Shown: one piece after another, positions 20,305 through 39,246 of the stretch
How positions within the stretch are numbered: the stretch's first letter is position 1
Layout: each line of letters opens with the position of its first letter
Source: Ignavibacteriaceae bacterium
Lineage (GTDB): Bacteria > Bacteroidota > Ignavibacteria > Ignavibacteriales > Ignavibacteriaceae
Assembly (NCBI GenBank): GCA_013360295.1
Contig: JABWCL010000015.1
Location: 1 to 64,000 of the forward strand
Reading direction: 5' to 3'
Length of the DNA: 64,000 nucleotides
Program-made: the position numbers and the translations under genes
The notes under the pieces: model-generated
What the model was told of the DNA's origin: nothing
Seen by the model: the letters and a program-made list of their open reading frames with translations, nothing else
Database searches by the model: none

Positions 20305-20660
20305 AGGGTTCTCCGGTAAATAGAATTTTGGAAAATAAGCCAGTTAATTTTGAAAGAATTGGCATACAGTAAAAGGGAGTTTGGATATCCGGTAAAAATG
20401 CCTTGTTAAGCGGAAAAAGAGGGGAAAAGCCGCTCCGGCTTTGTTCGGCAGGGGGCTCTCCCCGCTGGGTCCGGTAACTTCCGGGCACTCTTCCCCTGCC
20501 GGTTCCCCGGGTATGGGCGCCCTCTATGGGACAGTAAAATCCGGTTTTATTACCCGGACAAGTAGGCTGTTATTTTTTATTTATTTAGCGAAGTTTTGTT
20601 ATTAGTAACATCGGATTTTGTTATTTTTGTTGGATAAATAGTTTTAATAGTTAGTATCTA
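20305..20660. other. Intergenic region between divergent S46 peptidase and polysaccharide cluster
   Basis: 356 bp with a GC-rich central half (about 20410-20540, several CCGG and CCCC runs with short inverted matches) and a very AT-rich half near the plus-strand gene. It must hold the promoters of both directions. No gene recognised. Confidence 0.5.
20622..20629 (+). promoter_or_regulatory. Candidate -7 box (TATTTTTG) of the polysaccharide cluster
   Basis: TATTTTTG matches the Bacteroidota -7 consensus TAnnTTTG and lies 31 bp before the first ATG of the cluster. A TTTG at 20595-20598 could be the -33 element, although the spacing (23 bp) is longer than usual. Prediction by pattern only. Confidence 0.4.
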
Positions 20661-22223
20661 ATGGAAGTTCCGAAAAAAGTACTGGTTGTGGATGATGATC
20701 AGCTTAGCCGCAGGGTCATCAGCTTCAATTTAAGCAAAAGAGGATTAAACCCGCTCGAAGCTGAGAACGGTAATGATGCTTATCAGATCCTTACGGAAAA
20801 TGAGGTGGATTTGATACTATGTGATATCGAAATGACAGGACTCAACGGGTACGAGTTCTTTAACATGGTCCGCAGTAAATCAAGATTTAATTCGATACCG
20901 TTTATCTTTATTACATCTCACACATCCACGGAAGAAAAGGCAAAGGCGTATTCACTCGGCGCTGATAATTTTATATCAAAACCTTTTAACATGACTGAGT
21001 TTGTCGCCAAGGTTGAGAGTTCGCTGAAAAGGATAGAGATCAATAAATCTTACGGTAGGAGGAGACTGCCTCAGATCATTGATACGGAAAAATCAAACAG
21101 GGTATTAATTGTTGATGATCAGCCCGATTCCGCAGAAGTACTCCGCCTTTATCTGGAAAAAGACCATCTGATATGCAAGATTATTGAAAACCCGTTTATG
21201 GCGATCCAGGCCATATATGAGTTTCAGCCTGATCTTATTATGTGCGATTACAGTATGCCCGGCATTAATGGGTTTGAACTCAGAAAGAAAATACTTGCGG
21301 ATAATAAGATTAAAGATATTCCGTTCGTTTTTCTCACATCCATTGAAGACGAAAGCGTTGTGCTGGACGGTTATAATCTTAATATTAAAGATTATATCAT
21401 AAAGAATACACCCGTGAAGATAGTCGCGGTAAAAGTTAAAAACATGATCAAATCAATCCAGCAGGACAGGCTGGCGGCACTGAGTGAACTGAAGGATGCC
21501 GCTTCTGAAATGCACCTTGACCTTACGCCGGATATACCTGACGAGAAAGGTGACTTTAAAATTTCTCACTGGTACCAGCCGTTTAAGGATATCCCCGGCG
21601 GTGATTTCATGGACTTTATCGAAATGCCTGACGAAAAGTATATACTGGTGGTCGGGGATATTATGGGTAAGAAGTGGGGCGCCTGGTTTTATGCTTTTTC
21701 GTTTATCAGTTACATAAGAAGTTCAATAAGAGTGGTGTGCGGTGAAACCACTGAGTACAGCGCCGCGTTACTGCTCAGGAAAGTCAACTCTGCCATTTAT
21801 AACGACGCGAAAATTTCAGAGATCTTTTCCGCGGTTTCGATCCTTATCTTCTCCCCCGACCAGGGAGAGATAGATTATTCGGGCGCCGGAGACCTCCCGA
21901 TGCTGCACTACCTTAGGGAAACGGGCGAAGTGAAAGAATATGGTACAGGGGGGATTTTACTCGGAGCCCGTGCCGACGGCAAGTATGATGATATCCGGAT
22001 AAGTTTCAACAGGGGAGACAGGATTGTGCTCTTCACGGACGGGATAATTGATTCTTCCAATATCCATAATGAAACGTTTGGTATGGAACGCCTGAAGCAG
22101 GTGTTTTTAAAGTATGCGGCAAATGAAGATTTTCTCCTTAAATTTAAAGAGGAATTTTCAGGATTTACTGCCGGAAATTTCTCTGATGACATTTCTTTAT
22201 TAACTATAGCCAGGCGTATGTAG
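20661..22223 (+). CDS. REC-REC-PP2C phosphatase (RsbU/SpoIIE-type response regulator)
   Basis: 520 residues. Receiver 1 (about 5-125) has VVDDD, Asp in LILCDIEMTG and Lys in ISKPF; receiver 2 (about 147-265) has IVDDQ, Asp in LIMCDYSMPG and Lys in IIKNTP. A linker leads to a PP2C/SpoIIE domain (about 300-515) with metal-binding motifs GGDFMD (about 312), VVGDIMGKKWGAW (about 330), FTDGIID (about 458) and SDDISLL (about 507), so it should be an active Ser/Thr phosphatase controlled by two phosphorylations. Its expected substrate is the phosphorylated STAS protein encoded two genes downstream. It is the first gene of the polysaccharide cluster; its TAG shares a base with the GTG of the next gene. 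Confidence 0.93.
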   Translation: MEVPKKVLVVDDDQLSRRVISFNLSKRGLNPLEAENGNDAYQILTENEVDLILCDIEMTGLNGYEFFNMVRSKSRFNSIPFIFITSHTSTEEKAKAYSLGADNFISKPFNMTEFVAKVESSLKRIEINKSYGRRRLPQIIDTEKSNRVLIVDDQPDSAEVLRLYLEKDHLICKIIENPFMAIQAIYEFQPDLIMCDYSMPGINGFELRKKILADNKIKDIPFVFLTSIEDESVVLDGYNLNIKDYIIKNTPVKIVAVKVKNMIKSIQQDRLAALSELKDAASEMHLDLTPDIPDEKGDFKISHWYQPFKDIPGGDFMDFIEMPDEKYILVVGDIMGKKWGAWFYAFSFISYIRSSIRVVCGETTEYSAALLLRKVNSAIYNDAKISEIFSAVSILIFSPDQGEIDYSGAGDLPMLHYLRETGEVKEYGTGGILLGARADGKYDDIRISFNRGDRIVLFTDGIIDSSNIHNETFGMERLKQVFLKYAANEDFLLKFKEEFSGFTAGNFSDDISLLTIARRM

Positions 22224-23662
22224 TGAGTATTGCCGAAATAGTATTCTGGTTTTCGCTTCTTGTAATTTTTTACTCCTATGCGGGATACGGGATACTATTG
22301 GTATTTATCTCAAAGATCAGCTTTCTCCGTTTGCTCTTCCCGAAGCCGCGCAACAGAAAAGAAAGCCGGAAGATCTGCGCAGATGCTTCAGAATATAAAC
22401 CTCTTGTCAGCCTGATCATCTCTGCCTCGGGCGAATCACGTGAGATCATCAAGCAGAAAATAATAAATACTGTTAATCTTGATTACCCTAAAGATAAACT
22501 GGAAGTGTTCTTTGCGATAGCCTATGACCCTTCTTCCCCGACCGACGAGACCCTGGACACGTTTTATGACGAATTCCTCGCAGAACCCGCTCCCTTAAAA
22601 GTTACCTCTACCGATGAGGAGGTTTTTGTCCGGTTTATGAATTTTGACCGGGAAGAAAACCTTAGGTCTGAAGAAGCGCTCAACAGGCTTGAAGAACAGT
22701 TATACACTATGTCATTTGATTCCTCGCAGGTTACTGACGGTGCAAAGGATGTTATCGAAGGAAAACTCGCTGCTCCGGCATCGGAAGATCCGCTGAGGGT
22801 TTTTGTTACAAAAGATATCAGGCGCAAGGGAAAGATCGCGCAGGTTAACAGGACAGTAGAAAAAGCAAAAGGGGAGATTATTGTTTTCTCTGACGCTAAT
22901 TCAATTTTCAACCGTGACTCAATTAAGAATATTGTTACCCACTTTAATGATACAAGTGTCGGCTGTGTTGCCGGCGAAAAGAGGGTTAAAAAGAGTGAAG
23001 GTTCAACCAGCGGCGAAGGGGAGGGATTATACTGGAAATATGAATCATTCCTGAAAAAACTTGACTCGGACCTCTGGACAACCGTCGGAGCAGCCGGAGA
23101 GATTTTCGCAGTGAGAAAAGAACTGTGGGCGGGTTCCATTGAATCGAACGCGATTATCGAAGACTTTGTGGTTTCGATGAGAATCGCGGAGAACGGATAT
23201 AGGGTAATATATGAGCCCGACGCATACGCTGAGGAGGAACCAACCCAGGACTTAAACGCGGAACTGATCCGGCGGAAGAGGATCGCGGCAGGAGGATTTC
23301 AATCCATTGTCTGGCTGAAGTCACTGCTTAATCCTTTCAAATACGGAGTTGTCACGTTCCAGTACGTTTCACACCGGGTGCTGAGGTGGGCTTTGGTCCC
23401 TTTTCTGCTTCCGATCGTATTTTTTACTAACTTATATTTGGCTTTTTTTCTACATTCATTATTGTATTTGTTGATTTTTTTAGCGCAGTGCTTTTTTTAT
23501 CTGTTTGCCCTGGCGGGCTGGCGGCTGGAGTTAAAGCGTAAGAAAGTCAAGATTTTTTATTTCCCCTTCGTACTTGCGATGATGAATTATGCCGCGTATC
23601 ACGGATTAATCAGATATCTCCGCGGTTCACAAAGCGTGGTATGGGAGCGGGTGAAGAGATAG
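22223..23662 (+). CDS. Family 2 glycosyltransferase with a large insertion, membrane-anchored
   Basis: 479 residues from GTG 22223, which shares one base with the preceding stop. Membrane helix at about 7-30, GT2 domain about 60-370 (LVSLIISASGE; DANS around 224-227 as the nucleotide-sugar metal motif; IEDFV as the acceptor-side acidic motif; RRKRIAAGG near the usual QxxRW position), then two or three C-terminal membrane helices (390-450). Between the second strand of the fold (VFFAIAYDP) and the region that normally follows it (RVFVTKDIRRKGKIAQVN) there is an unusual acidic, helical insert of some 60-70 residues. It should polymerise or add sugars at the inner face of the cytoplasmic membrane. 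It sits between the phosphatase and the STAS gene. Confidence 0.9.
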   Translation: MSIAEIVFWFSLLVIFYSYAGYGILLVFISKISFLRLLFPKPRNRKESRKICADASEYKPLVSLIISASGESREIIKQKIINTVNLDYPKDKLEVFFAIAYDPSSPTDETLDTFYDEFLAEPAPLKVTSTDEEVFVRFMNFDREENLRSEEALNRLEEQLYTMSFDSSQVTDGAKDVIEGKLAAPASEDPLRVFVTKDIRRKGKIAQVNRTVEKAKGEIIVFSDANSIFNRDSIKNIVTHFNDTSVGCVAGEKRVKKSEGSTSGEGEGLYWKYESFLKKLDSDLWTTVGAAGEIFAVRKELWAGSIESNAIIEDFVVSMRIAENGYRVIYEPDAYAEEEPTQDLNAELIRRKRIAAGGFQSIVWLKSLLNPFKYGVVTFQYVSHRVLRWALVPFLLPIVFFTNLYLAFFLHSLLYLLIFLAQCFFYLFALAGWRLELKRKKVKIFYFPFVLAMMNYAAYHGLIRYLRGSQSVVWERVKR

Positions 23663-23695
23663 TTCTATAAATTTTAATTTTATTCAGGAGTCATT

Positions 23696-24034
23696 ATGAA
23701 TTTTCTTGTTGAAGAGGTTTCAGGCATTAATGTTGTCAGAATTGCAATACCCCGCGCGACCGCGGATGTTTCGAAAGAGTTTAAGTCGGTATTGTTTGAC
23801 CTGATTGACAATAAAAACGTACAGAAGGTGATAGTTGATTTTGGCAAAGTTGATTTTGCTGACAGCTCATTCCTCGGCACGCTTGTTTCAGGATTAAAAA
23901 AATGCTCAGCCAACAAGGGCGATATAAAAATATTATCGCTTCAGCCGCCTGTACGCGCAATGTTTGAACTTACAAGATTATATAAAGTCTTTGAGATTTT
24001 TGATAACGAACAAGACGCAATAAAGAGTTTTTAA
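23696..24034 (+). CDS. STAS-domain anti-sigma-factor-antagonist-type protein
   Basis: 112 residues, one complete STAS domain. The phospho-acceptor region reads VDFADSSFLGTLV, with S57/S58 followed by LG, matching the Ser of SpoIIAA/RsbV. It should be the switch component: phosphorylated by the RsbW-like protein encoded next and dephosphorylated by the PP2C protein at 20661. ATG 23696 is preceded by AGGAG. The next gene begins directly after its stop. No sigma-factor gene is nearby, so the final target is unclear and may be a polysaccharide enzyme. Confidence 0.93.
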   Translation: MNFLVEEVSGINVVRIAIPRATADVSKEFKSVLFDLIDNKNVQKVIVDFGKVDFADSSFLGTLVSGLKKCSANKGDIKILSLQPPVRAMFELTRLYKVFEIFDNEQDAIKSF

Positions 24035-24607
24035 GTGACTGATAAAATACATATCACAGTTCCGTGCGATATGAAGTTCATTCATCTCGTTGGGGATGCT
24101 CTGGAGTCTTATCTCCGGTTAAAGCTCCTGCCTGGCAAAGTCCTCAGTGAAGACGAGACATTAAAAAGCTGCAGGCTGATGATGTATGAACTTTATTCGA
24201 ACGCTGTCCGGCACTCACCGGGGTCGAAAGTGGATATCATAATCTACTTCAAACTTAATTATCTGGCGATAGATATTGAGACCAACGGTGAAGAATTCAT
24301 AGTGCGCCCTAAGGACAAACCGGGGCTTGAGATCCGCTTCCCCTATCCCGATTCTGTGCTTGGCACAAATTTCATTGTATATCGTGACAAGGACGAGGTG
24401 GTCAATTGCCACGTGCTCAGTGATTCCTGCCTGGAGTTCTCCAAGCAGAAAACAGGCGGAGGAGTGACGGAAGAATTGGAAATTCCGGATCACTTCGGGC
24501 TTCTGCTCCTCACATCGCTTACAAATGACGTGAAATACTTCAGGACAAAATCCGGTAAAAATATTTTTTCAGTAAGAAAGCATTTCCCTAAAGAGGCTGT
24601 GAATTGA
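24035..24607 (+). CDS. RsbW-like ATP-binding (HATPase_c) regulator, G1 box altered
   Basis: 190 residues from GTG 24035, immediately after the STAS stop. The N-box ELYSNAVRHS (E52, N56, H60) of the GHKL fold is intact. The G1 box, normally D-x-G-x-G, reads AIDIETNGEEF (D80 kept, glycines displaced), and the distal motif is HFGLLLLTSLTNDVKYF. It is longer than typical RsbW (about 150 residues), with an extra segment at about 90-145. It would bind and phosphorylate the STAS protein, or only bind it if ATP use is lost. Its stop overlaps the TTG of the next gene by 4 bp. Confidence 0.85.
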   Translation: MTDKIHITVPCDMKFIHLVGDALESYLRLKLLPGKVLSEDETLKSCRLMMYELYSNAVRHSPGSKVDIIIYFKLNYLAIDIETNGEEFIVRPKDKPGLEIRFPYPDSVLGTNFIVYRDKDEVVNCHVLSDSCLEFSKQKTGGGVTEELEIPDHFGLLLLTSLTNDVKYFRTKSGKNIFSVRKHFPKEAVN

Positions 24608-26412
24608 AAGCTATGATATTAGCGGCGGGAATGGGATCACGGCTGATGCCGCTTACCCTGACCATTCCGAAACCGATGCTTCCTATCGCGAACAAACCCT
24701 CGCTTGAACACATTATAGACCTCTGCAAGCGCCATAACATTACCAAGATCAAAATGAACCTCTTTCATCTTCCCGAAGCCGTGGATCATTATTTCCGCGG
24801 CGGAGAAGATTTCGGGGTGGAGATATCCTACTCTATCGAAAAAAGACTTTGGGGTACTGCCGGCGGAATAAAGAGGGTTCAGAGTTTTTTTGATGAGACC
24901 TTCGTTGTTCTGATGGGTGACGGGCTGACTAATATTGATCTTACGGCGATGCTGAAATTCCACCGCGAGAAGGGAGCGAAGGCGACAATAGCCGTCAAAC
25001 CGGTGGAGGACCCTTCGAGGTACGGTGTTGTGGTAACGGATGAAAATAACGCCATTAAAAGTTTTCAGGAAAAACCAAAAAAGGAAGAAGCAAAGTCGAA
25101 CCTTATTAATCTTGGCATTTATATTCTCGAGCCGGAAATACTTGATCTTGTGCCTCCAAAAGAAGAGTATGATTTCGGGCATCAGTTATTCCCGAAACTG
25201 CTCGAGCTTAACACTCCCTTCTACGCCTTTCATACAGACGCCGCGTGGGATGACATCGGCGGACTTATGGATTACTGGCGGGTGAACCTTGATGTTATTG
25301 AGGGAAAAGTACCCGGGTATGAGTTTAAAGGGGAGGAATTGAAGAAGGGGGTATTTGTACACCCTTCGACGAAGATTGACAAAAAAACGCTTGAGAAGAT
25401 CACCGCCCCCGTGCTTATCGGGAGAGATGTTGAAATCAATTCAGGGGTTGAGATTACCGGCCCCGCTGTTATTGGCGATGAGGTGTGCCTGGAATCAGGC
25501 GTCTCCGTAATTAAGAGTGTAGTGCTTAATAATACCTGGGTCGGAAAGGGGATTGAAATAAAGGACTCTGTTGTAAATAAAAATTATCATCTCAGTGTTC
25601 CGAACAACTTCGGCACATACATTGATGATGACAAAGTGCTTAAGGTTCACAGGATCGTTCCGTTTAGGGTAAAACTGGATCAGTTCCTGATTAATATTAC
25701 TGACAGGATAGTTGGCTTTTTCGCTCTGTTATTCCTTTCGCCTCTATTCCTTGTCACTGCCATTCTGATAAAACTTGATTCGCCGGGCCCGGTATTCTAT
25801 ATTTCCAAGCGCCTCCGCTCTCCCGCAATTGAAAAACGAGGAAAGCATTGGTATGTCTATTATAAAGAAAAATCCGTTAAGTATTACGTCTTCAGAACGA
25901 TGTACACTGATGCAGACAGAAGGGTGAAGGAACTGAAGAATAAATATCAGTCCGGCCCGTTCATTAAAATTGAAAATGATCCCAGGGTTACACGCGTGGG
26001 ACGAATACTCCGCAAAACTTCGATAGATGAACTTCCGTTGTTCTGGAACGTTCTTAAAGGAAGTATGAGCCTGGTTGGTATCTGGGCACTGCCGGTTTAT
26101 GAAGCGCAGCATCTGCTGGAAAAAGGATTGAAAGCGGGTGAAGGAGAAGAGAGCATTGACCTGACGGATGTTTCGCAGCTGAGGTTTGAAGGAAAACTCG
26201 GAATAGCCGGATTCTGGCAGGCGCGCGGGCGGAGTAATCTTACCGCGGAAGAGAGGGCAATACACGATTCATTCCAGTCTGTACTGGATGAAAACGTTGT
26301 GGCCGGAAATAATTATCTCGGTGAATATTCGGAGTTTCCGACATATAAAGGCTATATCAAAATGCTTATTGAGACTTTTAACGCCGTGGTAAGGCGTACC
26401 GGGGCGGAATAA
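24604..26412 (+). CDS. Fusion of sugar-1-phosphate nucleotidyltransferase and phosphoglycosyl transferase
   Basis: 602 residues. TTG 24604 is chosen because the resulting MKAMILAAG is the family's normal start and AGAGG lies 7 bases before it. Residues 1-235 are a nucleotidyltransferase ([32 protein letters not shown]), about 245-345 a left-handed beta-helix, and about 363-602 a bacterial sugar transferase with one membrane-inserted helix ([20 protein letters not shown]) and the catalytic [21 protein letters not shown]. So one protein may both make the NDP-sugar and start the lipid-linked repeat unit. The usual GPRP after SLVG is replaced by GIWALP. Genes before (4-bp overlap) and after (1-bp gap) are tightly packed. 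Confidence 0.92.
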
Positions 26413-26413
26413 A

Positions 26414-27088
26414 ATGAGAAAACTGCTCCTCATCTTTCTTTTGCCGGTGGCGGTTTACTCGCAGAATTTCACTTTTGAGGAAGTTCTCGCAGATTCCGCC
26501 GGGAAGGCATTTGTTGAAAAGCTTGTGGAGCTTGCGTGGAACAATTATCCCCACAATAAAGTTTTTTCGAGCCACATAGCAATCGCGGAGCAAAATCTTA
26601 CACAGACAAAATGGAACTGGCTGAACAATCTGAACCTGACCTATCAGTACAATCCGAACTTCGGATCTTCTCCGAACGATGGGTCTATCGTCCCCCGCTT
26701 TGGTATCGGGGTGTCGGTTAATGTTGGTTCAATTGTTCTTGCCCCGAGCAGGGTTTCACAGGCTGAAGAAGAGCTGAAGATTGCGGCCGCAAATTTAGAA
26801 ACACAAAAAATCTTCATCCGCACGGAAATCCGGAAACGCTATTCGAACTATATCAGCGCGGTAGAAAGGCTGAAGATCAGAACAAAAGCGGTGAATAACG
26901 CCGAATCAAGCCTTGAACTTATTAAGAAGAGGTTTGCCAACGGAGAAGTGTCTCTTGAGACGCTTAACCAGGCATTGAATACGCTTGCCAACAATGAGGA
27001 ACTGCGGGTGACTTCTTCCGGAGACTTGCTGTTCTATAAAGCCGCGATTGAAGAATACATCGGTGTTCCTCTGGAAAGTGTGAAGTAA
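26414..27088 (+). CDS. Half-length TolC-like outer-membrane channel family protein
   Basis: 224 residues with a signal peptide (1-17, ending VYSQ). The mature part shows the outer-membrane efflux (OEP) pattern once only: an alpha-helical hairpin half (AEQNLTQTKWNWLNNLNLTY), a short strand pair with NPNF and GVSVNVG, then the long coiled-coil helices (RVSQAEEELKIAAANLETQK, KKRFANGEVSLETLNQALNT). Full TolC proteins have two such repeats in about 430-480 residues; a protein of half that length could form oligomers of more subunits. In this cluster it takes the place where a Wza-type export protein (OPX) is usually found. Genes on both sides are 1-2 bp away. Confidence 0.8.
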   Translation: MRKLLLIFLLPVAVYSQNFTFEEVLADSAGKAFVEKLVELAWNNYPHNKVFSSHIAIAEQNLTQTKWNWLNNLNLTYQYNPNFGSSPNDGSIVPRFGIGVSVNVGSIVLAPSRVSQAEEELKIAAANLETQKIFIRTEIRKRYSNYISAVERLKIRTKAVNNAESSLELIKKRFANGEVSLETLNQALNTLANNEELRVTSSGDLLFYKAAIEEYIGVPLESVK

Positions 27089-27090
27089 CT

Positions 27091-29376
27091 ATGGAACTGA
27101 TCTGGTTTTTACGGGAACTGGCTAAAAAATGGAGGCTCCTCCTTATTGTGCCTCTTGTGGCTGTTATCGCCACATATCTTCTAACCTTAAAGATACCCAA
27201 AGTGTATAATGCAAACGCGCAGCTTGCCGCCGGTATTGTTGATGATACACAGGCGAGTTTTGACGCGACTAAGGAGATAATATCCAGTTATGCCGTCCAG
27301 ACAAAGTTCAGCAACCTCATTGAGCTGATCGAATCAAAAAAGGTTTATAATCTCATATCATATAAATTACTGCATCACGACCTTACTGATAATTATCCAT
27401 TCAGATTAACTCCACAGCAGTCCGCGTCGCTCAGCGACAAAGAAAAATCTCAGCTGATCGAACTGATGGATAAATATCTGATATCGGGCGCGTCATTAGG
27501 GCTGAGCACGCCTGTGGAAAGGCTCGCGAACAAACTGATAGGGGAACTCAGGTATGATGAGGAATCCGTTGATAAGGCGATTAAAGTTGATCGCGAAACG
27601 AACAGCGATTTTATTAAAATAGAAGCAGAAGCGGAAAGCGCCGTGCTTGCAGCGTTTCTAGCTAATACTATGTGCGAGCAGTTTCTTAAGTTCTATATTG
27701 ATCTGAGGCGTGAGAAGAATACCGCGATCATTGATTTCTTTGAAAAGCTCGCGCGTGAAAAGAAAGCCGAACTCGACGCTAAGGTTGAAGAGTTGAAAAG
27801 ATATAAGATGGATAATAAAATTATCAATCTTTATGAGCAGACGAAATCCATTGTCAACCAGATTGCGAATGTTGAGATTATCCGTGAAGGAGAAAATCAA
27901 AAGATCCCTGCTCTGACAAAAGCAATACAGGAAATTGAAAAACGCTTCTCTTCAAAAGAAAAATCATTTATTGAGACGGGGCTTATTCCATTTAATGAGA
28001 GGATCGCGCTCTTAAAGGACAGGGTCGCGGAGCTTAATATGCAGCTGATCTCCTCCAATTATACGGATAACAAAGCAAGAGACTCTCTGAATAAAACAAA
28101 ATCCGAACTGTACGAGATCGTTAAAAACGCCTCGGATAATCTGCTGGTTGACCCTAATGTACCGAAACAGGACCTGGTCGTTAAAAAAATAACGTATGAG
28201 CTTGACAGGGAGATAGCGATCAAATCAGTGGAATCCATTGATAAGGAAATCAGGCGTTTGAAGAATATCGTCGAGGGATATACCCCCTCTGAAGCAATGA
28301 TCTCTTCCTATGACAGGGAGATAAACGTTATCGCGGAAGCTTATCTTGTTATCCTGAATAAATTAACCTTCGCGCGGTTTGAGGCGGAAAACGCGGGAGA
28401 GAGCGTCCAGGTAACCCAGCGTGCCACGCCTCCTGAAAAAGCAGAACCGTCAAAAAGGCTTTTGCTTATAATAATTGCCGGACTGGCAAGCTTTGTGTTT
28501 ACAATAGTCGTTATTATTCTTCTCCTCTATCTTGATCTGACCATCAAGACGCCAAAGCAGTTTATTCAGAGGAGCGGACTTGAACTGGCGGGAATTATCA
28601 ATAAACTGACATTGGAAAAACTTGACCTGCGCTCTCTCTTCGGCAGTGAACCCAAGAACCAGGATGAAGTAATTTTCCAGAATCTGCTTCGCACTTTCCG
28701 CCAGCACTTTTTGGAAAGGGCGCCGGCTAAGGGAGTGATCCTCTTTACTGGTAATCACGGCAAAGAAGGGAAAACAATACTGATGATATCCCTGGCATAT
28801 TCGCTGAAGCTGACAGGAAAAAAGGTGCTGCTTATTGATACAAACCTGAAATCACCGGGACTAACAAAAATATTCAACGCGAAACCCGCGCTTGAGGCTG
28901 CCGCATTGGGCAATGTTTCGGTTGATGAAAGTATCAGCAATACCAGTCTTAATGATATTGATGTAATCGGCTGCGAAGGATTGAATATGACTCCTTCGGA
29001 AATAAGAGGAACTAAAACCTTCAGTGAAATACTCGCGGAGGTAAAAGCTTCTTATGACTATGTTTTTCTTGAAGGCGCCGCGCTTCTGAAGTACTCTGAT
29101 TCAAAAGAACTTATCACTGAAAGTGACGCCGTGATTCTTGTCTACGCGGCAAACTCAACAATACAGGAAGACGACCTTAATGCATTCCTTTATCTGAAGT
29201 CTTATGAAAGTAAATTCCTTGGAGCCGTGCTGAATAAAGTCCTGCCTGAAAATATGGAGGGGCTTTACGGTGAAATTGAGAAAAAGCGGAGCGGTACCAG
29301 AAAGTTTTTCAAAAAACTGGTAAAAAGGAATTTATCAGGGCAGATTAAAAACGGGACGAAAATCTCGGCGGACTGA
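27091..29376 (+). CDS. Wzz/Wzc-like polysaccharide co-polymerase with degenerate tyrosine-kinase domain
   Basis: 761 residues. N-terminal membrane helix (about 15-33), a large periplasmic Wzz-type region with long coiled coils (about 215-440), second helix (about 455-480, LLLIIIAGLASFVFTIVVII), then a cytoplasmic P-loop domain (about 540-730). Walker A TGNHGKEGKTIL (about 552) is intact, but Walker A' reads LLIDTNLKSPG (consensus D-x-D-x-R) and Walker B reads VFLEGAALL (consensus D-S/T-P-P). The C-terminus is basic and lacks the Tyr cluster of BY-kinases. It probably sets chain length and couples to export, with doubtful kinase activity. Translationally packed with neighbours. Confidence 0.9.
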   Translation: MELIWFLRELAKKWRLLLIVPLVAVIATYLLTLKIPKVYNANAQLAAGIVDDTQASFDATKEIISSYAVQTKFSNLIELIESKKVYNLISYKLLHHDLTDNYPFRLTPQQSASLSDKEKSQLIELMDKYLISGASLGLSTPVERLANKLIGELRYDEESVDKAIKVDRETNSDFIKIEAEAESAVLAAFLANTMCEQFLKFYIDLRREKNTAIIDFFEKLAREKKAELDAKVEELKRYKMDNKIINLYEQTKSIVNQIANVEIIREGENQKIPALTKAIQEIEKRFSSKEKSFIETGLIPFNERIALLKDRVAELNMQLISSNYTDNKARDSLNKTKSELYEIVKNASDNLLVDPNVPKQDLVVKKITYELDREIAIKSVESIDKEIRRLKNIVEGYTPSEAMISSYDREINVIAEAYLVILNKLTFARFEAENAGESVQVTQRATPPEKAEPSKRLLLIIIAGLASFVFTIVVIILLLYLDLTIKTPKQFIQRSGLELAGIINKLTLEKLDLRSLFGSEPKNQDEVIFQNLLRTFRQHFLERAPAKGVILFTGNHGKEGKTILMISLAYSLKLTGKKVLLIDTNLKSPGLTKIFNAKPALEAAALGNVSVDESISNTSLNDIDVIGCEGLNMTPSEIRGTKTFSEILAEVKASYDYVFLEGAALLKYSDSKELITESDAVILVYAANSTIQEDDLNAFLYLKSYESKFLGAVLNKVLPENMEGLYGEIEKKRSGTRKFFKKLVKRNLSGQIKNGTKISAD

Positions 29377-29377
29377 T

Positions 29378-31727: not shown

Positions 31728-33067
31728 GTTTTGCTAAAGACTCCTACTGGATGAAGTCCGGTCTATACACCCTGCTCCAGAGAGTCTCGGCGCTGCTCTT
31801 CGGCCTGGGTGGATTTATGATTCTGGTAAGGATACTTCCGAAGGATCAGTTTGGCACTCTCGCGTTATTCACTACGGTTATTGCTCTGGTTGAAGTTGCC
31901 AGGAACGGCCTGGTGCAGAACGCCCAGATCAAATTCGCCGCATCTGCGAAGGAGGAAGAATTACCCATAATTCTTAATTCCTCATTCACGCTCAACTTTT
32001 TTGTAACAATCTTATCAATTGTAATACTCATCGGATTAGCCTATCCTCTCAGCCTGCTATGGAGCAGCCCGAAGATTGAAATGATGTTCTACCTCTCGAC
32101 GGCTACCAATCTGATACTTATCTTCTTTTCGCAGTTTACCTTCATACAGCAGGCGAAAATGGATTTCAAAGGGATATTCTACAGTAATTTTGTCCGCCAG
32201 GGAAGTTATTTCGTTGTTATCTGTATATACTTTTTTTCCGGAATGATTATCAGTCTCGAGATGCTGGTTATATACCAGGCAATAGGCGCAGTGTTAGGGA
32301 CGATAATCGGCTACGGATATGTGAGAGGCTATTATAAACCGAGATTGCTTTTTCACTGGGAATGGATCAAAAAACTATTTAATTACGGAAAGTTTGTGTT
32401 CGGTACAAATATCAGCGCGATGATCTTTTCAAGCATAGATCAGGTGATCCTTGGCGCGATGCTTATGCCGGTGCAGGTAGCGGTATATAATACGGCTACA
32501 AGAATGAACAATTTTGTTGATATACCGGTGGCGTCGGTAGCTTCAATCGTTTTTCCGAAGAGCGCTCAAAGGGTGGAAGAATCAGGTTCGGATGCAGTAG
32601 TGTATCTGTATGAACGCTCAGTTGGATTGCTGCTGGCGATACTTGTCCCGCCTGTAATTGCAGTCATCCTTCTTGCCAAACCCATTATTATGATTATCGC
32701 CGGGGAGCAGTATCTCGCGGCGGTTCCGATACTTCAAGTGCTGATGGTCGTCGCGCTTTTCAGGCCTTTTATCAGACAGTTTGGCACGGCTCTCGACTCT
32801 CTTGGAAAACCGAAGATCAATTTCAGGATGCTCATAATAATTTCCGTCGTTAATGTTATCGCAAACTATTCTTGCATAACTTTATTTGGTACTATCGGCG
32901 CCGCAGTCGGGACGGCTTCAGCTCTGTTGGTTTTCTTCGTCTCCACGCAGGTAATTCTGAAAAAGGAAATAAACGCTAAGACGCATCATACATTTATTTA
33001 TATGTGGGACTTTTATAAAAAAGCTTTTACAACAGTAACAAACAAGTTAAAAGGACCAGCCCGTTGA
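31724..33067 (+). CDS. Oligosaccharide flippase, Wzx family
   Basis: 447 residues, largely hydrophobic, with about 12-14 membrane segments and the conserved Lys/Arg/Gly pattern of the polysaccharide transporter (MOP) superfamily, including the N-terminal LYTLLQRVSALLFGLGGFMI and the ILPKDQFGTLALF segment. It would move the lipid-linked repeat unit to the periplasmic face for polymerisation. ATG overlaps the previous stop by 4 bp (ATGA), and its TGA overlaps the TTG of the next gene. Confidence 0.94.
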   Translation: MSFAKDSYWMKSGLYTLLQRVSALLFGLGGFMILVRILPKDQFGTLALFTTVIALVEVARNGLVQNAQIKFAASAKEEELPIILNSSFTLNFFVTILSIVILIGLAYPLSLLWSSPKIEMMFYLSTATNLILIFFSQFTFIQQAKMDFKGIFYSNFVRQGSYFVVICIYFFSGMIISLEMLVIYQAIGAVLGTIIGYGYVRGYYKPRLLFHWEWIKKLFNYGKFVFGTNISAMIFSSIDQVILGAMLMPVQVAVYNTATRMNNFVDIPVASVASIVFPKSAQRVEESGSDAVVYLYERSVGLLLAILVPPVIAVILLAKPIIMIIAGEQYLAAVPILQVLMVVALFRPFIRQFGTALDSLGKPKINFRMLIIISVVNVIANYSCITLFGTIGAAVGTASALLVFFVSTQVILKKEINAKTHHTFIYMWDFYKKAFTTVTNKLKGPAR

Positions 33068-34275
33068 GTGATATGAACCTCATTTCCGGAAGAGATATTG
33101 TTGTCATCGGCCTGCAGGCGTGGGATGTTGATATCGGAAGCAACTGTAAAAATATCGCGTATGAATTCGCTAAGCATAACCGGGTGCTATACGTTAATTA
33201 TCCTCTTGACATAATTACTTTGCTTCGCGAAAGGCATCTCCCGCGCACTAAAGAAACCCGGGAAATGATAAGAGGCAGGAGGGATAATCTGCGGCAGGTA
33301 GCTGAAAACATTTATACATTCACACCCGCGCGGCTCCTGGCTTCAATCAATTGGATCAAAAGCCCTGATATGTTTGACAGGCTCAACAGGTTTAATAATA
33401 AAAGATATGCCGCTGAAGTAAAAGACGGGATAAACAGGCTTGGGATGAAAAACGTTATTCTGTTTAATGATAACGATATATTCCGGCCCCTTTATTTTAA
33501 GGAGTATCTGAATCCCGCGTTGTCCGTCTACTATTCACGCGATAATCTAGTCGGAGTGAACTACTGGAAACTGCACGGGGAAAGGCTCGAACCCCTGTTG
33601 ATTGCCAAGTCGGATTTATGCGTTGCAAATTCAACCTACCTCGCGGAGTACTGCAGAAAGTATAATCCTAATTCGTTTTATGTAGGGCAGGGATGTGAAC
33701 TGGATATATTTGATGAAGATAAGATAAAGGACAAACCGGAGGATATGAAGAATATTACCGGGCCGGTAGTTGGGTATGTCGGCGCTTTAAACGGCTTACG
33801 GCTTGACATAAAATGTATTGAGTATTTCGCAGGTAAACTTGAAAACTGGAGTGTGGTTCTTGTCGGGCCGGAGGATGATAACTTTATGAAAAGTTCTCTC
33901 CACAACATGAAAAACGTCTATTTCCTCGGACGCAAGGATGCATCACAACTTCCCGGCTATATAAAGTATTTCGATGTATGTATCAATCCTCAGGTTATCA
34001 ATCCTGTTACTATTGGGAACTATCCACGTAAGATAGATGAGTATCTCGCAATGGGTAAACCCGTGGTGGCGACAAAAACCGAAGCGATGAGCGTTTTCGC
34101 AGGCCATACTTATCTCGCGGAAAACAATGATGATTATGTCAGGTTTATCGCAAAAGCTAAGGAAGAGAATAGCGCGGAACTGGCATCAGTGCGTAAGGCG
34201 TTTGCCCGCGAACATACTTGGGAGAAGAGTACGAGCGATATTTACGCCGCAATCGAAACAGTTACTAAATCTTAA
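33064..34275 (+). CDS. Glycosyltransferase, TuaH-like GT-B family
   Basis: 403 residues from TTG 33064 (AAGGA about 9 bases before; an ATG three codons on is the alternative). GT-B architecture: N-terminal domain IVVIGLQAWDVDIGSNCKN and the conserved YYSRDN segment, C-terminal domain with VVGYVGALNG and PRKIDEYLAMGKPVVATKTE. The pattern resembles teichuronic-acid-type glycosyltransferases (TuaH). It probably adds one sugar of the repeat unit. Overlaps the flippase gene by 4 bp and is followed after 15 bp by the acetyltransferase gene. Confidence 0.9.
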   Translation: MSDMNLISGRDIVVIGLQAWDVDIGSNCKNIAYEFAKHNRVLYVNYPLDIITLLRERHLPRTKETREMIRGRRDNLRQVAENIYTFTPARLLASINWIKSPDMFDRLNRFNNKRYAAEVKDGINRLGMKNVILFNDNDIFRPLYFKEYLNPALSVYYSRDNLVGVNYWKLHGERLEPLLIAKSDLCVANSTYLAEYCRKYNPNSFYVGQGCELDIFDEDKIKDKPEDMKNITGPVVGYVGALNGLRLDIKCIEYFAGKLENWSVVLVGPEDDNFMKSSLHNMKNVYFLGRKDASQLPGYIKYFDVCINPQVINPVTIGNYPRKIDEYLAMGKPVVATKTEAMSVFAGHTYLAENNDDYVRFIAKAKEENSAELASVRKAFAREHTWEKSTSDIYAAIETVTKS

Positions 34276-34290
34276 CAAGGTTAAAATTAA

Positions 34291-34923
34291 ATGAGCGGAT
34301 TAGTTTCTAAACTCAAAAGTTCAAGCCCGGCAATAAAGAAATTTTTACTGTGGCTTCTGATGCCCGTCAACCAGGCGCGTCCGAGAATATGGGTAAAGCT
34401 TTTAATGCATCCGTTAATTATAAAGCGCGGTAAAAGAGTGACAATACGTCCCAGAACAAGAATAGATATTCTTCCCTTCAATAAATGCAGTATCGGAAGT
34501 GATTCAACGATTGAAGATTTCTCGACGGTGAATAACGGGGTGGGAGATATCCGGATCGGCGAGAGGACAAGGATCGGAATGGGAAACGTGGTAATCGGTC
34601 CGGTAACTATCGGTAGTGATGTGATGTTTGCCCAGAACATAGTCCTTTCCGGATTGAATCACGGCTTTGAAGATATATCAATGCCTCCGAGTATTCAGAA
34701 AGTAAGTACCGCGGAAATAGTTGTTGAGGATGAAGTGTGGATCGGAGCGAATGCTGTGATTACAGCCGGCGTCCGGATAGGCAAGCATTCAGTAATCGGG
34801 GCGGCAAGTGTTGTGACTAAAAACGTGCCGCCGTATTCCGTGGCAGTTGGTAACCCAGCGAAAATAATAAAGCAGTATAATAGCGAAACAAGTAAGTGGG
34901 AAAAGGTTAATAAAAATGTATAA
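34291..34923 (+). CDS. Left-handed beta-helix acyltransferase (maltose/serine O-acetyltransferase-like)
   Basis: 210 residues. An N-terminal helical segment is followed by hexapeptide repeats (IGSDSTIEDFSTV, IRIGERTRIGMGNVVIG, VTIGSDVMFAQN), a short loop with the catalytic His candidate in LSGLNHGFED, and the cap WIGANAVITAGVRIGKHSV, ending GNPAKIIKQY, the classic end of this family. It should O-acetylate a sugar of the exopolysaccharide. AAGG precedes ATG 34291. Its stop lies inside the start of a 42-codon gene. Confidence 0.93.
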   Translation: MSGLVSKLKSSSPAIKKFLLWLLMPVNQARPRIWVKLLMHPLIIKRGKRVTIRPRTRIDILPFNKCSIGSDSTIEDFSTVNNGVGDIRIGERTRIGMGNVVIGPVTIGSDVMFAQNIVLSGLNHGFEDISMPPSIQKVSTAEIVVEDEVWIGANAVITAGVRIGKHSVIGAASVVTKNVPPYSVAVGNPAKIIKQYNSETSKWEKVNKNV

Positions 34924-35044
34924 GATCAGGATCAAGCAAACAGAGGACGATCTGGATCCGCGCAGCAAAATGGTTGAAAAGGTCACGCTGATCTTTGTGG
35001 GCGCGGTTATCTACGGGATAGCCCTTAAGATAGTATTTTTCTGA
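34916..35044 (+). CDS. 42-residue single-span membrane protein within the polysaccharide cluster
   Basis: An ATG at 34916 overlaps the end of the acetyltransferase gene by 8 bp and opens a 42-residue frame ending TGA at 35044. The product begins MYKIRIKQTEDDLDPRSKM, a charged N-terminus, followed by one hydrophobic helix (VTLIFVGAVIYGIALKIVFF). The overlap style matches the rest of the cluster and the composition is clearly that of a membrane micro-protein. No family recognised. It may be a small partner of a membrane glycosyltransferase or the polymerase. Without it, a 161-bp gap would be the largest in the cluster. Confidence 0.65.
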   Translation: MYKIRIKQTEDDLDPRSKMVEKVTLIFVGAVIYGIALKIVFF

Positions 35045-35084
35045 AACAGTGAAGTGTTTTTAATAATTTAAAGTATACCAGGAA

Positions 35085-36062
35085 ATGGAAGAAAAACTTA
35101 ATAATCAGTTGCCCGATGTAGCTATCGTAATTGTTAGCTGGAACACAAAAGACCTTTTACGGAAGTGCCTCAAATCAGTCTATGATGAGACTAAAAAATA
35201 TACATTTGAGATCTGGGTCGTTGATAATGATTCGCCGGATAATTCCGCCGGAATGGTGGCTGAAGAGTTTCCGGAAGTCAAGCTTATCGCTAACAAAACG
35301 AACAATGGCTTTGCACCGGCTAATAACCAGGCGCTGCGGGTTGCAGACGCTAAGAATTATTTACTTCTGAATCCTGACACGGTTGTGCTTAACGGCGCGA
35401 TTGATAAGATGCTGGACTATATGTATGAGCACAAGCCGGGGACAGTCACCTGTAAATTGCTTAATGACGATATGACGCTGCAGAAATCGGTGAACAACTT
35501 TTTCTCCCTGTGGCGTTCATTCTTTGAGAACAGGTTTTTCGCGGAGATATTTCAGAACTTCAGTCTTTCCGGCTCGATGTTTATGTCCTACTGGGATCAT
35601 AATGAACTGAGGGAAATTGACTGGGCCTACGGCGCGGTGATTTTATTCAGCCGCGAAGTCTATGATAAAGTCGGGATACTTGATGACCGTTACTACATTT
35701 ACGCGGAAGAGATGGATTTCTTTATGCGCGTTAAGAAAGCGGGGTATAAATCTGTGTTCCTGCCAGAAGTTCACATTATACACTACGGGAAATCGTCCTC
35801 ACGCCAGAGGCGCGCGGAGATGTTCATAATGAATTATAAAAGTTTTTATATGTTCCTGCGCAAGAACTATCCCTCACACGTCTATCCTATATACAGGGCT
35901 CGGACGGTTTTCTATCTTTATTTGTGGCTGCTCAAATTCAACACAGATGTTTTTATCGCGAAGCTTAAAGGGAAGAGAAACGAAGAAGCGCTGACACAGA
36001 TAGATGTTTACACAAGAACGCTTCAGTGGCACAAATCACCTGAAAGTGAAATTCCGGTTTGA
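35085..36062 (+). CDS. Family 2 glycosyltransferase, rhamnosyltransferase-like
   Basis: 325 residues. The GT2 domain begins VAIVIVSWNTKDLLRKCL and has the VVDNDSPD, NNGFAPANNQ and LLLNPDTVV (D-x-D-like) signatures of the WcaA/rhamnosyltransferase subgroup, with EEMDFFMRVKKAGY as the acceptor-side motif. A C-terminal basic, amphipathic region follows. It probably adds one sugar to the repeat unit. CAGGA precedes ATG 35085. Overlaps the polymerase gene by 4 bp. Confidence 0.93.
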   Translation: MEEKLNNQLPDVAIVIVSWNTKDLLRKCLKSVYDETKKYTFEIWVVDNDSPDNSAGMVAEEFPEVKLIANKTNNGFAPANNQALRVADAKNYLLLNPDTVVLNGAIDKMLDYMYEHKPGTVTCKLLNDDMTLQKSVNNFFSLWRSFFENRFFAEIFQNFSLSGSMFMSYWDHNELREIDWAYGAVILFSREVYDKVGILDDRYYIYAEEMDFFMRVKKAGYKSVFLPEVHIIHYGKSSSRQRRAEMFIMNYKSFYMFLRKNYPSHVYPIYRARTVFYLYLWLLKFNTDVFIAKLKGKRNEEALTQIDVYTRTLQWHKSPESEIPV

Positions 36063-37549
36063 ATGATTTTGTATTAGATATTAGCGCCGCGCGTCCGGTA
36101 AACGGAAAAGAACGGATAAAGGTTTTTTTCCGGGAAAAGTTCATTGACTCCAGGCTGGAGAGCGGTTACGGTATCTCAATACTTTCATTAGCGGCAATAT
36201 TTATCGCTTTTGTTGTTACAAAGGCAGGCCTCACCGCAGGGATAGGGTTGATTGCGCTTGCCCTGGCTTTGCCGATGGTGCTTTTATGCCTTTATAATAT
36301 TAAGGCTACCCTGGTTTTCACTATAGTGTTTTCATTCTTTTTTTCGATCATTAAGCGAGCTGTCGGAAATATCCAGCTTGGCCTGGTTGTTGACGCCCTC
36401 ATTGCGTTAATGTTTTTTGGATTGGTATTAAAGCAGGTACAGGAGCGTAACTGGAAGATCAGGAATAACGCGGTTAATAAAGTCATACTCGCCTGGATAG
36501 TCTATAACCTTCTGCAGCTTGTCAATCCAACTGCCGAATCCCGGCTGGCGTGGTTTTATACCGTACGCACCTTCGCCGGGATAATGATAATGTACTACCT
36601 GCTTATGTATGCAATTGATAACCGGAATTACTTTTTCCTTCTGATAAAAATATGGATTAGTCTGACAATACTCGCAATGATATACGGTTATATACAGGAG
36701 TATATCGGACTTATGCCTTTTGAGGAGCGCTGGGCTACGGCAACGAAGGAAAGATACGCACTTCTCTTTCAGGCCGGGAAATTCCGGAAGTTCTCTTATT
36801 TTTCGGATCCCCTCGTGTATGGTTTTATGATGGCCGTTACCAGTATTCTCTGTTTCATACTCGCACAGGGGCCGATTAAAAAAGGTTATAAGATATCGTT
36901 ATATACAATTAGCGTGCTTATGATGTACGCGATGCTTTTTTCCGGCACCCGCACCGCCTTTGTGCTGCCGATGGCGGCATTTCTTTTCTACGCGGTAATT
37001 TCCTTTAAGAAAAATATTTTGATTTTCGGGGGAGTAATGGGTATTGTGCTTCTTATATTACTCAATATCCCGGCGAACAATGCTAACCTCTACCGATTCC
37101 AGAGTGCCTTTAATCCAACAGAAGACGCTTCTTACCGGACACGCGCGAGAAACCAGGCATTCATACAACCGTTTATTCAGAAGCACCCGTTAGGCGGCGG
37201 GCTCGGCAGTGTGGGTGAGTGGGGGAAGAAGTTCTCTCCCTGGTCGCCACTAGCAAACTTTCCGCCTGATTCAGGTTTCGTTCGCACTGCGGTAGAGCAG
37301 GGGTGGCTCGGACTTTTACTTTACTGCACTCTGCTTTTCCTTGTGTTTAAACAGGGGATCCACGATTATTTCAGGATACGAGATCCGCTCTTAAAAAATA
37401 TTTCTCTCGGAATGTTAACCGTATTGTTCTCGCTTGTGGTTGCAAATTTCCCGCAGGAAGCGATCGGACAATACCCCATAAATATATTATTTTTTGTCGC
37501 AATCGCGCTGATAACAAAAGCGCGGGAATTTGATTTGGTGAAAACATGA
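36059..37549 (+). CDS. O-antigen polymerase/ligase family membrane protein (Wzy-like)
   Basis: 496 residues with about 11-12 membrane segments and the large periplasmic loop (about 360-410) that carries YRTRARNQAFIQPFIQ and HPLGGGLGSVGEWG, the pattern of the Wzy/WaaL O-antigen ligase family. SGTRTAFVLP is the conserved motif before it. It should join repeat units at the periplasmic face. Start is TTG 36059, overlapping the previous stop; no in-frame ATG lies nearby. Overlaps the next gene by 4 bp. Confidence 0.91.
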   Translation: MNDFVLDISAARPVNGKERIKVFFREKFIDSRLESGYGISILSLAAIFIAFVVTKAGLTAGIGLIALALALPMVLLCLYNIKATLVFTIVFSFFFSIIKRAVGNIQLGLVVDALIALMFFGLVLKQVQERNWKIRNNAVNKVILAWIVYNLLQLVNPTAESRLAWFYTVRTFAGIMIMYYLLMYAIDNRNYFFLLIKIWISLTILAMIYGYIQEYIGLMPFEERWATATKERYALLFQAGKFRKFSYFSDPLVYGFMMAVTSILCFILAQGPIKKGYKISLYTISVLMMYAMLFSGTRTAFVLPMAAFLFYAVISFKKNILIFGGVMGIVLLILLNIPANNANLYRFQSAFNPTEDASYRTRARNQAFIQPFIQKHPLGGGLGSVGEWGKKFSPWSPLANFPPDSGFVRTAVEQGWLGLLLYCTLLFLVFKQGIHDYFRIRDPLLKNISLGMLTVLFSLVVANFPQEAIGQYPINILFFVAIALITKAREFDLVKT

Positions 37550-38391
37550 AAAACAGGTTCAGCTCCCCCGATTGGCTGCAGAAGCATCTGGATATCCCCG
37601 ACACCCCTTTTACAATAAGTGAGAGCAGGTTTGAAGAGATAAGAAATAAAATGAAAAAATTTACCGCTGAAGATCCTGAGGTTTCAGTTATGATACCCTG
37701 CTGGAATGAAGAACCTAATATAGTTCGGACTATCTCCACGTTCAGCGAGCAGACAACGCAGAGAAGGACTGAGATTGTTTTTGTAAACAACAACTCGACC
37801 GACAGGACCGCTGAACTTCTCGATAAATGCGGCGCGGTAAGCATCTTTGTTGAAAAGCAGGGGATCAGTTTTGCCCGTCAGGCGGGGCTGGAGAGGGCTA
37901 AAGGGAAATATCATCTCTGCGCTGACGCCGATTCATTTTATCCGCCGGACTGGATAGAGACTATGGTTAAAGCGCTTGAAGATGATTCCGTTACCTGTGC
38001 TTATGGGCGGTACTCCTTTATTCCCCCTGAGGGAACAAGCAGATTCGCTCTAGGCGTGCACGAAATAATTGCCGAATCGCTGTTCACACTTCGCAACCGG
38101 CGCAGGCAGTACCTGAATGTCGGGGGCGCAAATTTTGGTTTCAGAACTGCTGACGGAAAGAAAGTCGGAGGTTTTAATACAACACGCCCGAAGTGGTCAG
38201 ACGGTTGGATGGCAATGACACTTGCTGATATCGGGAAAATTCAACTGGTCAAAAGTAACAGCGCGCGTGTCTGGACCAGCGCCAGAAGGCTCATGGCAGA
38301 CGGCAGCCTCGGAAAAGCTTTCGTAAGAAGAGTTAAGAAGGAGATTGGCAGATTATATGAATACGTATTCCCCGTGGAGCATAAGAAGTAA
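37546..38391 (+). CDS. Family 2 glycosyltransferase, last gene of the cluster
   Basis: 281 residues. The GT2 fold starts at about residue 45 (VSVMIPCWNEEPNIVRTI) with FVNNNSTDRT, the metal site CADADSF (D-x-D) and KWSDGWMAMTLADIG in the acceptor half. No membrane helix. It ends 12 bp from a convergent minus-strand gene, which closes the cluster. No terminator hairpin was evident in that short gap. Confidence 0.92.
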   Translation: MKNRFSSPDWLQKHLDIPDTPFTISESRFEEIRNKMKKFTAEDPEVSVMIPCWNEEPNIVRTISTFSEQTTQRRTEIVFVNNNSTDRTAELLDKCGAVSIFVEKQGISFARQAGLERAKGKYHLCADADSFYPPDWIETMVKALEDDSVTCAYGRYSFIPPEGTSRFALGVHEIIAESLFTLRNRRRQYLNVGGANFGFRTADGKKVGGFNTTRPKWSDGWMAMTLADIGKIQLVKSNSARVWTSARRLMADGSLGKAFVRRVKKEIGRLYEYVFPVEHKK

Positions 38392-38403
38392 GGGGGGAGA
38401 ACT

Positions 38404-38781: not shown

Positions 38782-38888
38782 CGCGTCAATATTATTTGAT
38801 TTATTAAGTGTAACTTAACGGATCACGGCGGATAAATGAAATAGCCCGGGAGCGCAATTTTCTGATAAATCGCAGCCGTCTTGGGCCA

Positions 38889-39005: not shown

Positions 39006-39146
39006 AATAAAATTAACGGTTAGCGGTTTTAGAATAATATTCTCACTGAAAACAATAATTAAATTAAGTAGTAATGCACGAATGCGCAAATTTGGCAGAG
39101 GATACTGTGATGGGTTGTGACATACAGATGTTCATATACTGAGGAA

Positions 39147-39166: not shown

Positions 39167-39246
39167 AGCAATTAATTACAACATTAAATTAATAGTTGGA
39201 AATAATTAATAATATTTAAGTTTTCGGTAACCGGACAATTTCCCTC

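Follow-up and report, generated by a model that had tools for sequence, protein, structure and literature searches.

Why would a polysaccharide operon open with the parts of a partner switch and yet carry no sigma factor gene, and on what would such a switch act? The operon in question occupies positions 20661-38391, on the + strand, of a 64,000-nucleotide stretch (hereafter the window) from an Ignavibacteriaceae bacterium (contig JABWCL010000015.1 of assembly GCA_013360295.1), whose genome (G000) is Ignavibacteria-like. A first-pass annotation had described a tightly packed run of about 16 genes in which a REC-REC-PP2C phosphatase, a STAS antagonist and an RsbW-like ATPase accompany a Wzx/Wzy-type polymer pathway. 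The gene content, order and coordinates are borne out by the list of open reading frames (ORFs) and by Pfam domains, as is the absence of a sigma factor gene from the cluster; the packing is indeed tight, with neighbours overlapping or 0-33 bp apart except for a 161-bp gap before 35085, but the ORFs number 15.

The reading we favor, which we hold to be evenly poised between right and wrong, is that the operon opens with genes for a serine-phosphorylation switch, like SypE/SypA of Vibrio and dedicated to this polymer, whose output is the STAS protein rather than the RsbW-like protein and which acts on the polymer machinery. The more general claim of a putative polymer-dedicated phospho-switch is well supported by sequence comparison; that the switch directly controls a glycosyltransferase is a guess, though one that can be tested.

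The switch genes

The first gene (20661-22223) encodes a 520-aa REC-REC-PP2C phosphatase of the SpoIIE type (two Response_reg domains at 159 bits, SpoIIE at 99 bits; motifs GDIMG, FTDG and SDD), the presumed STAS phosphatase under two receivers. Behind it come GT2a, a family 2 glycosyltransferase of 479 aa (22223-23662; Glyco_trans_2_3, 50 bits), the 112-aa STAS protein (23696-24034; Pfam STAS, 56 bits; above the TIGR00377 cut-off), and RsbWl, a diverged 190-aa protein of predicted RsbW/SpoIIAB fold (24035-24607; weak HATPase_c_2 match), whose start immediately follows the STAS stop. The RsbWl end is overlapped by 4 bp by the gene for PGT (24604-26412), a 602-aa fusion of sugar nucleotidyltransferase, left-handed beta helix and bacterial sugar (phosphoglycosyl) transferase (NTP_transferase 181 bits, Bac_transf 117 bits) that likely starts polymer assembly.

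The phosphatase motif GDxMG is kept in 11 of 11 PP2C rows (a twelfth row, matching another kind of protein, was left out), and the plain TDG string is missing in one (G055). The earlier description of a phosphatase driven by two receivers fits the window, where both Response_reg domains are found, but does not hold throughout: G549 and G183 have shorter phosphatase ORFs (389 and 371 aa).

Conservation of the arrangement

With RsbWl as probe, we found family members in 12 of 245 genomes of the class, 13 of 80 genomes of the window's own family (f1) and 8 of 29 of family f8; a phylum sample of 395 added one genome of another class (G530). The total, window included, is 23 loci in 22 genomes, and the ORFs of the larger stretches were compared with the window proteins. 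Loci L024-L030 are taken as the same records as seven of these 22 genomes, not as extra evidence. In the phylum sample the RsbWl profile matched 193 of the 395 genomes at E<=0.001; among the places listed, six were better than 1e-10 (G183, G149, G218, G000, G005 and G530) and only these were counted as family, so that members may be missed, the sample having been drawn evenly and at most eight candidates per genome scored. Most of the other matches listed cover fewer than 100 of 191 positions, many of them in ORFs above 500 aa, and were rejected as histidine kinases, though not each was checked.

The order PP2C-GT2a-STAS-RsbWl-PGT is intact in nine loci of two families (the window, G588, G549, G159, G116, G193, G083, G201 and G055). 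A contig end in G189 holds the last four genes of the set (GT2a-STAS-RsbWl-PGT), G548 has the set in two separate places (PP2C-GT2a and STAS-RsbWl-PGT), a 3.5-kb contig of G005 carries PP2C-STAS-RsbWl, and in G530 a REC-PP2C gene, STAS and RsbWl stand before an acyltransferase gene, opposite two family 2 glycosyltransferase genes. RsbWl adjoins STAS in 19 of the 23 loci and is fused with it in two more (G183 and G571; a 309-aa protein, read from L026 for G571), and immediately precedes the PGT fusion in 11 of 23. Between families the operon proteins are mostly about 40-70% identical, and RsbWl 23-34%.

RsbWl is absent from the operons of family f13, which in 4 of 4 fetched (G051, G041, G021 and G011; L196-L199) read GT2b-GT4a-Wzx-?-REC-NtrC-GT2a-STAS-PGT-REC-REC-PP2C (GT2b, GT4a and Wzx are described with the rest of the pathway below). 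The polymer operon of G183 (REC-REC-PP2C-GT2a-STAS-PGT) lacks it as well, its RsbWl being the STAS fusion encoded elsewhere. The lasting association is that of STAS, PP2C, GT2a and PGT, with RsbWl joined to it in some loci and missing from others. That these four occur without RsbWl, in the f13 operons and in G183, suggests STAS rather than RsbWl as the output, and argues that this output needs no RsbWl, as concluded for SypA in Vibrio (PMC10120452).

The first-pass annotation had named gene order in relatives as its check, and scattering of the regulatory genes away from the transferase genes as what would speak against it. Across families the switch genes are instead tied to the transferase genes and little scattering is seen, the exceptions being RsbWl, outside the operon in G183 and missing in f13, and the divided set of G548. 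The continued linkage of switch and polymer genes in several relatives suggests control of the polymer machinery rather than of a sigma factor.

STAS and its paralog on the precursor operon

The window STAS protein scores 57.1 bits against the NCBIfam anti-sigma antagonist model TIGR00377 (cut-off 53.45). In its motif D-S-S-F-L, D56 and S57 are found in 19 of 19 rows, S57 being the presumed phosphoacceptor; D-S-[STF] is kept in 35 of the 36 STAS rows of a wider tree set, the exception being the STAS of the canonical RsbW operon on contig C36 of the window genome.

In family f8, rmlA, rmlC, (glycogen phosphorylase) and UGDH genes lie directly behind PGT or one gene on in all six re-examined stretches (L013, L014, L018, L020, L022 and L023). 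The window genome has its rmlA/rmlC/UGDH-type precursor operon on another contig, C48 (L104, 10100-16776; STAS-epimerase-rmlA-rmlC-phosphorylase-UGDH), headed by a STAS paralog that is 47% identical to the window STAS and has the motif D-S-F-F-L. Precursor operons headed by STAS also occur in G588 (same layout), in G549 and G140 (without the epimerase) and in G548 (STAS-rmlA at a contig end), and in G590 the precursor genes are preceded by a partial STAS match holding a stop. Five precursor-operon rows form a clade with those of G183 and G571 (98/97), and in five of the seven rmlA follows directly or after the epimerase. The tree places the precursor-operon STAS only as its own clade, with the type-A STAS rows (type A as used for GT2a below) not resolved as one group, and leaves the duplication undated; it also carries a long-branch warning, G530 standing with the fusion STAS. 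Where the locus is divided, a STAS gene thus tends to accompany the sugar genes. Such an arrangement makes more sense for a STAS that works for the pathway than for one that works for a sigma factor.

In G183 (L141) and G571 (L140) the STAS of this clade stands beside a 1123-aa protein, weakly similar to the REC-REC-PP2C, instead of sugar genes.

RsbWl has a predicted RsbW fold and altered ATP-pocket motifs

The sequence match of RsbWl to HATPase_c_2 is weak (18.3 bits, cut-off 27.4). Its AlphaFold model (pLDDT 87.4, pTM 0.83) bears out a predicted SpoIIAB/RsbW fold: all 20 Foldseek matches in the PDB with E<=0.001 are SpoIIAB, RsbW, UsfX/anti-sigma-F or Leptospira LvrC chains. The VIA Z values are 14.2 for UsfX (2.1 A over 116 residues), 14.1 for RsbW (1.4 A over 103), 14.0 for SpoIIAB (2.7 A over 127), 12.0 for LvrC (2.8 A over 130) and 11.1 for chain B of the SiaB-SiaC entry 6kko (2.9 A over 131), and the best histidine kinase reaches 7.4.

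In an alignment of 21 rows (G218 and G571 left out), the N-box Glu and Asn (E52 and N56), H153 and G155 are invariant. The G1 Asp, which makes the adenine contact in GHKL proteins, is found in one row only; at its position (83) 14 rows have T and six have other residues. The window protein reads T-N-G-E-E at G1, with G-E-E-F where the second Gly stands in 18 of 21; the first Gly of G2 is replaced by His in all 21, and a long insert separates the G1- and G2-like motifs. The canonical RsbW proteins encoded on C36 and C20 of the window genome both retain the G1 Asp. In the earlier label "RsbW-like ATPase", the first term stands on the predicted fold and the second is doubtful, the G1 and G2 motifs being altered. 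A Pfam scan of 15 RsbWl members up to E 10, with filters that drop weak matches, did not list the SiaB family.

GT2a carries an acidic insert

Matches to GT2a (E<=1e-40) occur in 23 of the 80 f1 genomes, only five places being near full length (the window, G588, G548, G549 and G183). We aligned 20 rows: ten of type A (G183 and nine from genomes where RsbWl stands with STAS and PGT), four f13 rows and six further relatives. The set takes in the relative next to the G530 switch but neither G193 nor G189. An insert of 70-72 residues in the GT-A domain is present in 10 of 10 type-A orthologs and in none of the 10 other relatives. In the window it has 72 residues, about 99-170 as aligned, with borders uncertain by several residues. 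The inserts hold 15-22 acidic and 5-10 basic residues, with E132, E133, F138 and L160 in 10 of 10, and this conserved acidic segment is a candidate docking site.

In place of YNE, nine of the ten aligned type-A sequences have SGE, and G183 has FAE. We also entertained, and rejected, a loss of the nucleotide-binding loop: the raw alignment hinted that TDGSxDxT is gone in type A, but by eye the loop is probably there, shifted by two residues. D102 (9 of 10 type-A rows), D108 and T110 (10 of 10 each) probably represent this shifted loop, and we therefore make no claim of an inactive GT2a. A comparison of the window with its congener G588 gave no synonymous rate for any of seven genes, which we read as saturation, and no ratio of nonsynonymous to synonymous rates.

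A model of the switch and its alternatives

Our model starts from what is seen, namely the gene content, the conserved arrangement, the phospho-serine position, the predicted RsbW fold, the altered ATP-pocket motifs and the pairing and fusion of RsbWl with STAS; to these we add enzymatic reactions, a switch polarity and a target as inferred steps. Upstream signals would set both receivers of the REC-REC-PP2C, which would remove the phosphate from STAS Ser57. Unphosphorylated STAS would be the output form and would bind a partner in the polymer pathway, for which the constant gene neighbourhood suggests GT2a (via its acidic insert) and the initiating PGT as candidates. RsbWl, the opposing partner, would bind STAS and might either act as its kinase, with low activity or an altered choice of nucleotide, or do no more than sequester it. 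We think unlikely a more specific form of the model, in which PP2C and a non-canonical RsbW, no longer binding ATP in the customary manner, would gate STAS, and STAS would dock on the GT2a insert and switch repeat-unit assembly without a transcription step, with the duplicated STAS doing likewise for the precursor enzymes.

Several observations weigh against a STAS-centred switch dedicated to the polymer. In six loci (G149, G218, G604, G605, G587 and G542) the examined stretch around the STAS-RsbWl pair holds no window-type polymer gene, so that a link to polysaccharide is not general for the pair, and two RsbWl loci (G549:C207 and G590) have no STAS neighbour. The GT2a relative beside the G530 switch lacks the insert, which counts against a strict link between insert and RsbWl, and G140 has a STAS-headed precursor operon without RsbWl and without a close GT2a ortholog. 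The natural STAS-RsbWl fusion is well modelled by domain (pLDDT 84.8), but the model does not fix how its domains are arranged (pTM 0.58). Two genes from the STAS-RsbWl pair of G149 lies the gene for a 758-aa protein (L016, 5967-8243), one segment of which resembles Sigma70 region 4 (26.2 bits, cut-off 24.1), and the f13 operons contain a sigma54 activator.

This last point makes transcriptional control possible, and the first alternative is that STAS and PP2C, together with an NtrC-type activator, set transcription of the polymer genes, co-location then meaning co-regulation only. The f13 order REC-NtrC-GT2a-STAS-PGT-REC-REC-PP2C, 4 of 4 fetched, speaks for this proposal. The window genome itself has an NtrC-STAS-REC-REC-PP2C trio without polymer genes on contig C70 (L105, 7070-10414; similar trios at L117-L119), whose STAS and PP2C cluster with the f13 proteins (100/100 in both trees), and the syp locus too is under a sigma54 activator, SypG (PMC5801674). 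The window operon, however, contains no NtrC gene, and sigma54-like sites are no commoner in the window than chance would give (30 against 45.8 expected, at <=2 mismatches), with none within 20305-20660; moreover, the STAS arm of syp works below transcription. We consider sigma54 control of the polymer genes rather unlikely.

A second alternative is a classical anti-sigma partner switch, in which STAS acts on a canonical RsbW elsewhere in the genome or RsbWl itself holds a sigma factor. The predicted anti-sigma fold of RsbWl fits this, as does the region-4-like protein of G149, and cross-talk is possible with three RsbW-type proteins that score above the Pfam cut-off in the window genome (open frames of 139-148 aa on C36, C48 and C20). 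A client is harder to find: the whole genome has one Sigma70_r3 match (a 284-aa ORF), which reads as the housekeeping sigma, and no SigB/SigF/FliA-type sigma was found by Sigma70_r3 match, a search that does not cover ECF sigmas. The changed G1 and G2 motifs of RsbWl also tell against such a switch, which we regard as improbable here.

That the signalling cassette merely hitch-hikes in the polymer locus with no functional link, as the abundance of STAS and PP2C domains in the genome (12 matches each) and the RsbWl-STAS pairs lacking polymer genes nearby might suggest, is very improbable given the same order in separate families despite the divergence noted above, the STAS paralog at the head of the separate precursor operon, and the overlapping operon genes.

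Two further features surround the pairs without polymer genes: dehydrogenase and redoxin genes also lie near the pair of G149, where the neighbours were scanned, and the pairs of G218 and G604 have ORFs nearby that are similar in length to the G149 758-aa protein.

Comparison with known systems

A phospho-switch of this kind is known (Vibrio syp, Pseudomonas SiaABCD), and the composition found here is new; judged by their anatomy, the Ignavibacteria systems would work like syp and SiaABCD but differ in composition. SypA of Vibrio is a STAS protein, encoded by the first gene of an 18-gene polysaccharide locus, and SypE, which joins kinase, REC and PP2C in one protein, phosphorylates it on Ser56 (PMC4517449, PMC10120452). 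SypA acts below transcription on a target described as unknown (PMC10120452, PMC4517449), and SypE/SypA are still put below transcription in a paper of 2025 (PMC12369376). The earlier view that partner switching in a biosynthetic operon is uncommon therefore holds only in part, syp already having STAS, kinase-REC-PP2C and polymer pathway in one locus.

Like the window operon, syp of Vibrio fischeri has STAS and a receiver-bearing PP2C inside a Wzx/Wzy polysaccharide locus, STAS is proposed as the downstream component, and a sigma54 activator is shared with the f13 version. Whereas SypE joins kinase, receiver and phosphatase, the window's kinase-like part and phosphatase are separate proteins. 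At the level of gene and domain content, the window differs further in having two receivers on the phosphatase, a degenerate and dispensable RsbW-type protein, STAS between GT2a and RsbWl-PGT, a STAS paralog on the precursor operon, and a host of a different phylum. The f13 polymer operons (L196-L199) carry a syp-like regulator set of REC, NtrC-type sigma54 activator, STAS and REC-REC-PP2C.

SiaABCD of Pseudomonas aeruginosa likewise combines a PP2C, an RsbW-fold kinase and a STAS-like phosphoprotein, SiaC, that binds an enzyme directly. SiaC resembles anti-sigma antagonists (PMC7647112), and its unphosphorylated form binds and activates the cyclase SiaD (PMC8457831); chain B of 6kko, presumably SiaB, resembles the modelled RsbWl fold (the Z of 11.1 given above). 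Together with SypA, SiaC is a precedent for a STAS or STAS-fold output that involves no sigma factor. The differences are that the target is a diguanylate cyclase and that SiaC is a DUF1987 protein phosphorylated on Thr68 (PMC7647112, PMC8457831). The Bacillus sets RsbU/RsbV/RsbW and SpoIIE/SpoIIAA/SpoIIAB share with the window the trio of PP2C, STAS and RsbW-fold protein, the phospho-serine motif and the N-box Glu and Asn; the window differs in having no sigma factor gene and an RsbWl without the G1 Asp and first G2 Gly and with a long insert. HmpU/HmpV/HmpW of Nostoc punctiforme, compared by description rather than sequence, is another partner-switch set tied to polysaccharide, and to motility, with the HmpV target called unknown (PMC8256260). 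In the open-licence literature we found no published account of partner switching in Ignavibacteria; what wider searches turned up there included work on myxobacterial phosphatases, a STAS review, SypA, a Vibrionaceae eps locus and conflict systems.

With STAS keeping its place between a single glycosyltransferase gene and the gene for the initiating transferase, and a paralog heading precursor genes, the candidate targets narrow to a few proteins. A separate system in another phylum bears on the target of SypA-type STAS proteins, described as unknown in the papers cited above, and RsbWl illustrates how an RsbW-fold protein can retain its STAS partner although the motifs of its ATP pocket are altered.

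The remainder of the polymer locus

Behind PGT come a short outer-membrane-efflux-type protein (OEP; 26414-27088, 224 aa; Pfam OEP, 84 bits) and a Wzc/Wzz-like polysaccharide co-polymerase with a CpsD/MinD-like ATPase domain (27091-29376; AAA_31 36 bits, Wzz 22 bits and sub-cut-off, eps_fam 81 bits against a cut-off of 108). They are followed by the glycosyltransferases GT2b (29378-30604; Glyco_tranf_2_3, 96 bits) and GT4a (30591-31727; Glycos_transf_1, 122 bits), a Wzx-type flippase (31724-33067; Polysacc_synt_3, 92 bits), GT4b (33064-34275; Glyco_trans_1_4, 43 bits) and a hexapeptide acyltransferase (34291-34923; Hexapep, 62 bits). The last three genes encode GT2c (35085-36062; Glycos_transf_2, 73 bits), a Wzy-type polymerase or O-antigen ligase-like protein (36059-37549; Wzy_C, 51.5 bits) and GT2d (37546-38391; Glycos_transf_2, 97 bits).

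By domain family, with the co-polymerase's Wzz match sub-cut-off, the operon holds the initiating PGT, Wzx, Wzy and the co-polymerase, as first described. To call the pathway complete was generous: the locus has no Wza-type export gene and offers the short TolC-type OEP instead, the only Poly_export (PF02563) match of the genome being on contig C30, and the precursor operon too is on another contig.

The Wzc-like protein shows no C-terminal tyrosine cluster by eye and may not be a typical bacterial tyrosine kinase. In family f8, GT2b and GT4a are apparently one long ORF, of 773-777 aa where complete (L020, 9483-11807; also L014, L018 and L030). Sigma70-type promoters and terminators in 20000-39300 are at the level of shuffled sequence (36 against 35.0, and 24 against 19.8).

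The operon is flanked on the opposite strand by a gene for an S46 peptidase and, beyond a small ORF, by one for a DUF4954 protein. At 38404-38781, convergent with the operon end, lies a gene for a small membrane-type protein of 125 aa with no Pfam match; its blastp relatives lie close to the G159 (L074) and G116 (L075) polymer loci, with one weak match next to the G530 switch (L073).

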